From Anaerolineae bacterium (GTDB taxonomy: Bacteria > Chloroflexota > Anaerolineae > Aggregatilineales > Phototrophicaceae), in NCBI GenBank assembly GCA_022843745.1, contig JALHNB010000033.1, positions 1 through 64,000 on the forward strand: a stretch of DNA of 64,000 bases, written 5' to 3'. The stretch's first letter is position 1. Each line of letters begins with the position of its first letter. Positions 21,459 to 23,903 of the stretch are shown piece after piece. The notes under the pieces are model-generated. The model did not search any database. It was not told the origin of the DNA and saw only the letters and a program-made list of their open reading frames with translations. The translations under genes and the position numbers were made by a program.

Positions 21459-21674
21459 AGTATCTTTTCTAAGCCGTTAGCTTGTAGCGGTTAGTTTTTA
21501 GAGATCAGCTTTTAGTGACCAGCAAAATCACTCGCGCACAATCATTCTGGAGTCGAATTGTATATGAGCGTGGGAGTCGGGGCAAGCGCAGGTAATTTTG
21601 ATAAGTAAGGTAAGCACAGAACGGAGGGAATTCGTAGCCGGAGTGTTCATCGTCAGAGACCAGCTATGAAGAAG

Positions 21675-21795
21675 CTACAAGTAAACGAGTCGAAAACCAC
21701 AGTAGTTGAAGCGGACACTTGGATCGTTCATGTAGCGGAATGAACAAGCCGCCCTGTACGCAAGATCGTAGAACGATCCACCTCGAACGACACGC
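21675..21795 (-). other. Candidate DGR variable region at the 3' end of the TIR-FGE gene
   Basis: At positions where DGR templates usually have AAC/AAT codons, the gene has TTC, TAC, GAT, CTT, TAC, TTC, TAC, AAC, GAT, AGT, GTC, TTC, AAC, TAC and TGT. All fit NNY, as expected from adenine-specific mutagenesis of AAY. The framework residues (RGGS, A, R, P, R, GFRLV) match known DGR targets. No template repeat or reverse transcriptase is in the window. Confidence 0.5.
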
Positions 21796-23033
21796 GACTT
21801 ATCCGTATGAAGCGCAATACTATCTTTACCCCACTCTGTTAAACACCACTCCCATACATTGCCACACATATCCATCACGCCATAGGGACTTGCGCCATGA
21901 GGATATTTTGTAACAGATGTGGGTTTGCGAATGCCACTCTCAATCGTATTGCAGGCGAGTTTATCGAAATTATTATCCCAGGGATATTTGCGCCCATCAT
22001 TACCCTGGGCGGCACACTGCCACTGCTGTTCGGTAGGCAACGTAATTTCCTCATTCACCCGCGCCGTTAACCAGTGGCAAAAGGCCACAGCATCGTACCA
22101 ACTCACATTCGTGCGCGGCAGGTTAGTCTCAGAGTAAGCCGTATAGTTCAACTGTGGATTTTCAGCACGCCACTTTTTTGCATGTTCCGAAAAGTCCCAC
22201 CATTTCAGGTTGCGATAGCCATCTTTGGCATCGACAAAAACCTGATATTGGGCGATTGTGATTGGATATTTGGCAATAGCGAAAGCGGGAACATCATAGA
22301 TGCCGCCTTTTGTGCCGCCAATATCGCTCACATCTTCCAACGTGACTTTACCCGCTGGGATTTCGCACCATTCGAAAGGGTGTGGGAGAACGGCAGAAAC
22401 ATCGGGAACCGCTGGTTTGGGGATGAATAAATTGTCGGCTAAAGATAAGCTGATGAGCAACGTATCGGCCTCATCATCCAGGGGCAGTGTATCAATTTGT
22501 GGTATTCGCGGTATATCTAAAGTGTCCGGCTGTTTGCTAATGTCTGAAGTCACAGTTGGAGACTGTTTCCCTCTCCCCAATATCCGATCAATCGCGTGAA
22601 TAAGGCGATCCATATGGGGATGAAAATCTCGATCACTGACTTCAAGCGCGTTACGTCGTGACAGCGACTTAAGATCATCCGGGAGTTCATCGGCGTAGGG
22701 CATAGACGCGCCACCGACCAACAGCGGAATCACACGAATGCCACGCCGCAGCGCTGTCGCCACCTCCAACCGCACAAAATCATGAGGGTTATCCAAACGC
22801 CGTCGCCCGTTACTATCCGTCACACTGACCCAATTGCGTCCGATAACTGCCAAAAGCACATCACAGGACTGCACAGCCTGTTCAAGACGTTCTACAAAAT
22901 CGTCACCGTAATCAATGGTATCGAGATCACGAAATATATGTGCCGGATCATATTGTTTTGCCAGTCGATCATAAATGGCGATCACATAGCCGGAGGTATC
23001 GGCACGGCGATAGGAAATGAAAATACGCGACAT
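21675..23033 (-). CDS. TIR domain fused to FGE-sulfatase/C-type-lectin-like domain; candidate DGR target protein
   Basis: This is a 452-residue fusion. Residues 1-150 form a TIR domain (IFISYRRADTSGY; HIFRDLDTIDYGDDF; putative NADase Glu in DFVRLEVATAL). A linker leads to an FGE-sulfatase-type domain from about residue 225 (PHPFEWCEIPAG, NLPRTNVSWYDAVAFCHWL, LPTEQQWQCAAQG, YPWDNN, GNVWEWC, VVRGGS...GFRLVYL). The paired cysteines of true formylglycine-generating enzymes are not both present near the C-terminus, so it should be a ligand-binding C-lectin fold rather than an enzyme. The last 38 residues have the character of a diversity-generating retroelement variable region. The start has AAGG about seven bases upstream. 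The LAGLIDADG gene lies upstream on the same strand. Confidence 0.9.
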   Translation of the reverse strand: MSRIFISYRRADTSGYVIAIYDRLAKQYDPAHIFRDLDTIDYGDDFVERLEQAVQSCDVLLAVIGRNWVSVTDSNGRRRLDNPHDFVRLEVATALRRGIRVIPLLVGGASMPYADELPDDLKSLSRRNALEVSDRDFHPHMDRLIHAIDRILGRGKQSPTVTSDISKQPDTLDIPRIPQIDTLPLDDEADTLLISLSLADNLFIPKPAVPDVSAVLPHPFEWCEIPAGKVTLEDVSDIGGTKGGIYDVPAFAIAKYPITIAQYQVFVDAKDGYRNLKWWDFSEHAKKWRAENPQLNYTAYSETNLPRTNVSWYDAVAFCHWLTARVNEEITLPTEQQWQCAAQGNDGRKYPWDNNFDKLACNTIESGIRKPTSVTKYPHGASPYGVMDMCGNVWEWCLTEWGKDSIALHTDKSRVVRGGSFYDLAYRAACSFRYMNDPSVRFNYCGFRLVYL

Positions 23034-23129: not shown

Positions 23130-23903
23130 TTAAGACTTTGGGCCGACGACACCATCCAGATATTCGACATCAGCACGCTTGGCGATGTTGATATTGCGTC
23201 CGTTGCTAGCAACCGTCCAGTGCAAGCCGAGCAAATCGCAGACGTGGCAAAACAACTGTCGGATGTCTTGAGAGAGGTTGGTGAATGCGTATCGTGGATA
23301 CTCTTTACCCTTCACAACATTCTTGTCGCGCGAGCCATCGGAATGAAAAAGTCCTCGGAAAAATTCAAGTGGATAGGAATCAATAATTTTGAATTGCCAT
23401 TCTTCGAGTTTAATTTCGCGATTGTGCTTCCTACCGTCACCATGCTGCGGGAACAGATCAGGCCAGAATTTGTGATGACAGCTCACATTAACACAGCCTA
23501 CAGCTTTCACAATTCCGACTTTATTGTTCGGCAAAATGGTTTCGATTGACTTTTTACAATCTGCAATAATATTGGGATATTTCAGATCAAGTGTTATACG
23601 CAATCGATAAACGTTACGATTCCTGGATATGTCACCATCTCCAAGATAAAGGCCTAGGAGATAAGCATAGGCTATGTGAGTACGAGAGTTTTGTGGATTA
23701 AGTTCAGAAGGTATAAGTGCTGAAGTGTTGTTTTTGACATCATGTTGAATGAGGTTTACACTGCATATCTGATTCAGAGTAAAAACGAGATTAACTCGAC
23801 TTTTGGAAATGCCTAAAATTCTTGCTATTTGTGATATATTTTTCCCTTCACTCCAAAATCTCAAAATAAGTTCTTCTTCATAAGTCGGAGTGTTGCTATC
23901 CAT
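23130..23903 (-). CDS. HTH and LAGLIDADG-type protein (free-standing homing-endonuclease-like)
   Basis: This 257-residue protein begins with a helix-turn-helix (EEELILRFWSEGKNISQIARILGISKSRV) and continues with a two-motif LAGLIDADG fold: YLLGLYLGDGDI near residue 85 and FFRGLFHSDGS near residue 185, each containing the metal-binding acidic residue. A conserved basic C-terminus ends GPKS. Proteins of this design are common, often labelled transcriptional regulators, in actinobacteria; whether they cut DNA is unclear. The gene is clearly more AT-rich than its neighbours, which suggests transfer, and it sits next to tRNA-Leu, a typical integration site. No host intron or intein is visible. Confidence 0.8.
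   Translation of the reverse strand: MDSNTPTYEEELILRFWSEGKNISQIARILGISKSRVNLVFTLNQICSVNLIQHDVKNNTSALIPSELNPQNSRTHIAYAYLLGLYLGDGDISRNRNVYRLRITLDLKYPNIIADCKKSIETILPNNKVGIVKAVGCVNVSCHHKFWPDLFPQHGDGRKHNREIKLEEWQFKIIDSYPLEFFRGLFHSDGSRDKNVVKGKEYPRYAFTNLSQDIRQLFCHVCDLLGLHWTVASNGRNINIAKRADVEYLDGVVGPKS

Follow-up and report, generated by a model that had tools for sequence, protein, structure and literature searches.

On the minus strand of the window, by which we mean the whole stretch of 64,000 nucleotides analysed here, an open reading frame at 21675–23033 encodes a protein of 452 residues whose matches to Pfam TIR_2 and FGE-sulfatase both exceed the cut-offs, bearing out the TIR-FGE fusion proposed by the initial annotation. 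The TIR domain (residues 4–133; 22635–23024, minus strand; TIR_2 E 5e-12) contains a glutamate, Glu90, that is invariant in an alignment of 10 proteins and aligns with a Glu of the SARM1 TIR chain; we take it to be the catalytic glutamate of the TIR fold, and the fold and this residue together suggest a putative TIR NADase. A linker (residues 134–245; 22299–22634, minus strand), predicted with pLDDT below 50 at residues 155–205, leads to an FGE/C-type-lectin-like domain (residues 246–450; 21684–22298, minus strand) that is recognized by the FGE-sulfatase model (E 1.2e-42), by the structure model and by Foldseek. This domain ends in a block resembling the variable region (VR) of a diversity-generating retroelement (DGR) target (residues 414–450; 21684–21794, minus strand), RVVRGGSFYDLAYRAACSFRYMNDPSVRFNYCGFRLV, so that the C-terminal framework described earlier is confirmed, with a length of 37 residues. 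By alignment with the templates of relatives, 15 positions of the block correspond to template asparagines (N sites: 422–424, 426–427, 434–437, 439–440, and 442–445).

In the structure model (mean pLDDT 70.9; below 50 at residues 422–428), five of the 15 N sites fall in the loop 420–429 and others in 436–444, and Foldseek matches included FGE, EgtB, the SARM1 TIR, and Treponema denticola variable protein 1 (2y3c), a DGR protein. The protein thus has a C-type-lectin/FGE fold with a C-terminal VR in register. NCBIfam enzyme models of the FGE fold match it far below cut-off only, and PADLOC gave a weak ThsB match and nothing else. Directly upstream on the same strand (23130–23903) lies a gene for a LAGLIDADG_3 and HTH protein, for which no homologue was seen at the other loci compared. 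Elsewhere in the same genome, another TIR-like match of the protein (E 1.2e-25) was located just beyond the window (G000:C33:65683-66129), and a single frame of 634 residues (G000:C38:6354-8159; L007/L010) contains two tandem FGE-like matches. The named relatives found were mostly metagenome-assembled genomes of Anaerolineae and other Chloroflexota.

The codons at the N sites were initially described as all NNY, which is an overstatement because AGG (R427) and ATG (M435) are exceptions; NNY codons occupy 13 of the 15 sites, as against 240 of 413 in the rest of the gene (one-sided p = 0.019, for a gene that was chosen for this feature). On its own, the NNY pattern is weak evidence for a VR, and it appears stronger in the context of homologues: 19 VR-like segments average 14.4 of 15 and 36 other FGE homologues average 10.3 of 15, with five of these 36 reaching at least 13. 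When the N sites were scored with a VR model fitted on VRs within 0.10 of their template against a background that excluded the tested gene, the TIR-FGE gene obtained a log-likelihood ratio of +3.8. The corresponding values run from −2.4 to 7.0 for the 15 VRs that lie within 0.15 of a template, and of the 36 non-VR-like homologues a single one (L040, a member of the gene's own subtree) reaches 3.8. These codon and likelihood comparisons cover the 37-codon segments only, i.e., 56 of 68 segments, the window's gene included. At the DNA level, 26 of the 77 non-A sites mismatch the best of the relatives' templates compared, a value inside the range of homologues without a matching template (0.32–0.52); for some templates, the nearest other template is itself as far as 0.35 away. 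The variable sites therefore appear to resemble true VRs, while the DNA is not close to any template compared. The gene might never have been a DGR target: it could be an FGE homologue of the ordinary kind, with binding loops that normal mutation and selection have driven apart, a reading that the non-A mismatch and the modest p value of the NNY pattern favor and that the VR-like codon content opposes; all considered, we regard it as unlikely.

Comparison among clades bears on the same question. In a tree of 65 rows, from which segments with fewer than 150 residues upstream or with identical upstream sequence were dropped, the TIR-FGE gene groups with five others (L039, L040, L042, L003, and L050; support 86/85), and this 6-gene clade has an identity of 8% at the N sites versus 62% in the framework. 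A DGR clade used for comparison gave 17% and 84%, respectively, and four non-DGR clades gave 49–87% and 61–95%. In non-DGR clades, conservation at the 15 sites is thus comparable to that of the framework, but this does not hold for the clade of the TIR-FGE gene, which argues against ordinary divergence, as does the DGR linkage of its neighbor L039, which matches a template in its own genome (G014) at 71 of 79 non-A sites (8 mismatches). AAY-derived codons and hypervariability at the N sites are accordingly both found in the TIR-FGE gene. The window's genome is the sole member of its genus among the 98 genomes of the family. On the tree, the 15 rows labelled as VR are scattered and require 9 changes of label, which suggests that gains and losses have been frequent. 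Between two relatives, the TIR-FGE genes L041 and L045 from two species of one genus, the VRs differ at 21 first or second and 3 third codon positions and the 60 codons upstream of the VR at 15 and 17, respectively (Fisher p = 0.002 versus VR). This pattern may be a sign of recent DGR activity in relatives; no RT was seen in the L041 or L045 genomes.

DGRs are present in the bacterial family to which the window's genome belongs. FGE relatives at E ≤ 1e-40 occur in 95 of the 98 family genomes, and an RT of the type found at locus L142 was recovered as 14 full-length copies (one with an internal stop) in nine of the 98, and in fragmentary form elsewhere. Templates were detected in 16 of the 98 (none with the reversed pattern), seven of which have no full-length RT in the assembly, and nine template–VR pairs showed 0 to 3 non-A mismatches over 78–81 sites. 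The idea of a DGR target thus stands for the family, where L142 (genome G056) is a complete cassette comprising a TIR-FGE target, RT, Avd, and template. Its template and VR differ at none of 79 non-A sites and at 25 of 35 A sites, its Avd scores 95.8 bits against an NCBIfam cut-off of 80 (the Pfam match is also above cut-off), and its RT shares 33% identity with the Brt protein of phage BPP-1. The targets of other cassettes include a TIR-nSTAND1-FGE gene (L138, with a VR one codon longer than its own template and for this reason not compared with it) and a TIR-NACHT-FGE gene (L136). About 100 bases downstream of the TIR-FGE gene in another relative (G018:C10, L099 10440–10714) lies a broken DGR RT in two frames, a sign of DGR decay.

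Most DGR targets of this family carry a CTCTG/TTCTG-rich, heptad-like tract immediately downstream of the VR; in many cases hairpin-like sequence comes next, and the tract is present across genera (L041, L045, L123, L134, L138, L140, L142, L144, L146, and others). Among 975 kb searched on both strands there were 14 dense tracts, six of them lying no farther downstream of a VR end than the preset limit; those of L080 and L130 and one of L139 were also placed after a VR end by eye on the sequences. The 3′ flanks of the templates themselves contain 0–2 tract units per 150 bases. The tract could be a cis element for retrohoming or a common intergenic repeat. We compared 19 target flanks with 49 others, each with 100 bases available, and found that left-out 7-mer sharing was 28–81 for the target flanks and 13 for the flank of the TIR-FGE gene (21575–21683, minus strand); this value is not above background, since 132 control flanks share 7.9 7-mers on average and 16 of the 132 reach 13. 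No short hairpin was found in the 122 bases scanned at the VR end of the gene. The missing element is a further point in favor of the view that the gene was never a target.

For the window's genome itself (7.96 Mb, 117 contigs, 98.6% complete), the idea of a DGR target found no support. The RT and the template repeat that the initial annotation had proposed to look for were both searched for, and neither was found in this genome. The sole RVT_1 match (L001 718–2397, minus strand; G000:C97) is a UG21 defence RT and was rejected as a DGR RT because of this type. With a relative's DGR RT as the query, the genome gave nothing better than E 0.63, a match on contig C83 that was rejected, being antisense to a gene read as an ABC-type binding protein. 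Gene-specific template patterns hit only the TIR-FGE gene itself, blastn revealed no second copy, and the generic template pattern that is positive in 16 of 98 family genomes (reversed control 0) had no match in this one. The Avd of L142 had no tblastn match within the window and three other stretches of the same genome. A scan of loci with 29 VR-like segments revealed no cis template, and DGR loci were then located through their RTs. No template of the gene's type was detected in 154 genomes of the order, where pattern matches in G084 and G134 were rejected as low-complexity or carrying 3 mismatches. Viral contigs held no relative of the gene, and phage records gave weak matches (about 27–30% identity among the matches listed), none of which covers 80% of the protein. 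That the gene is nonetheless a live target, served in trans by an RT and template that lie on a mobile element or in sequence missing from the assembly or the bin, seems very improbable to us. In favor of it, the assembly, at 98.6% completeness, is split into 117 contigs, such gaps do happen, as the seven of 16 template-bearing genomes without a full-length RT indicate, and trans activity is reported for Thiohalocapsa in the available portion of PMC10907252. Against it, the genome yielded neither a remnant of an RT nor a template nor the 3′ element, and the C83 match is antisense.

We hypothesize instead, and consider it probable, that the TIR-FGE gene derives from sensors diversified by a DGR and that its retroelement has since been lost, i.e., that it is an orphaned or fossil target. 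Descent is supported by the template register, the framework match, the +3.8 ratio, the hypervariability of the clade, the DGR-linked neighbor L039, and the L142 cassette, and it is opposed by the 26 of 77 non-A mismatches, the two NNR codons, the lack of a 3′ element and of a template in the order, and the patchy label. The description of the block as shaped like a DGR target is in this sense upheld, as a target by descent, but with RT and template absent from the genome there is no support for a receptor that is being diversified now. Mechanistically, an error-prone RT and Avd in relatives would copy the template with its adenines randomized, the mutated copy would replace the 3′ end of TIR-FGE or TIR-NACHT/STAND-FGE genes, and the loops of the lectin-like fold would change while the framework is kept. 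The lineage of the window would then have lost the DGR and, with no RT or template found and no 3′ flank element present, the last variant would have become fixed in this genome.

The protein is most likely a one-piece sensor-effector. Its FGE domain may recognize a specific ligand, which could be a phage molecule or one arising from self-damage, and ligand binding may cause the TIR domain to degrade or process NAD+. Bacterial defence TIRs degrade or process NAD+, and a defence role would be in line with this architecture. A broader idea, that lineages of the family repeatedly lose the DGR and yet keep the last TIR-FGE variant under selection, turning a random specificity into a fixed innate immune gene, is one we put forward tentatively and hold to be doubtful; if true, it would be a bacterial counterpart of an antibody turned germline receptor. 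Overall, our data document TIR-FGE receptors diversified by DGRs across one bacterial family, in which both complete and decayed cassettes occur. The receptor described here seems to have persisted after the loss of the retroelement that made it, so that one can ask whether specificities generated by diversification ever get fixed.

Our literature searches found no work combining a TIR domain, FGE-sulfatase, and a retroelement, and little on DGRs in Anaerolineae, neither of which proves absence. DGR-diversified CLec/FGE antigen sensors have been proposed in multicellular bacteria, with hosts that include filamentous Chloroflexi (Dore et al. 2024, PMC10907252, as far as the accessible part of that article goes). 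As described there, those sensors share with the window's protein a C-terminal FGE/CLec domain with a VR and have TIR, CHAT, and NACHT/STAND parts; unlike them, the window's genome has no detected RT or template, and the TIR is fused straight to the FGE domain with no NTPase. An FGE/lectin sensor coupled to a TIR effector would fit both this proposal and a survey of conflict systems (PMC7159879), to the extent that the available text of the two covers it. The gene also resembles cyanobacterial remote variable proteins and VP homologues, which in the portion of PMC7517822 at hand are CLec paralogues encoded apart from the DGR, not all of them with a template match, with TIR-like domains listed among the N-terminal parts, but the cyanobacterial genomes carry a DGR and the window's genome apparently does not. 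A TIR domain with the aligned glutamate is shared with Thoeris ThsB and SARM1-like TIRs, in keeping with the weak PADLOC match to ThsB and the SARM1 matches, but the window's protein differs from these in its C-terminal FGE domain. The L142 cassette has the same TIR-FGE architecture and VR framework type and differs in having a complete RT, Avd, and a template with a perfect non-A match, and a VR one codon longer. TIR-lectin DGR targets have already been published, and the gene described here adds another of that kind.
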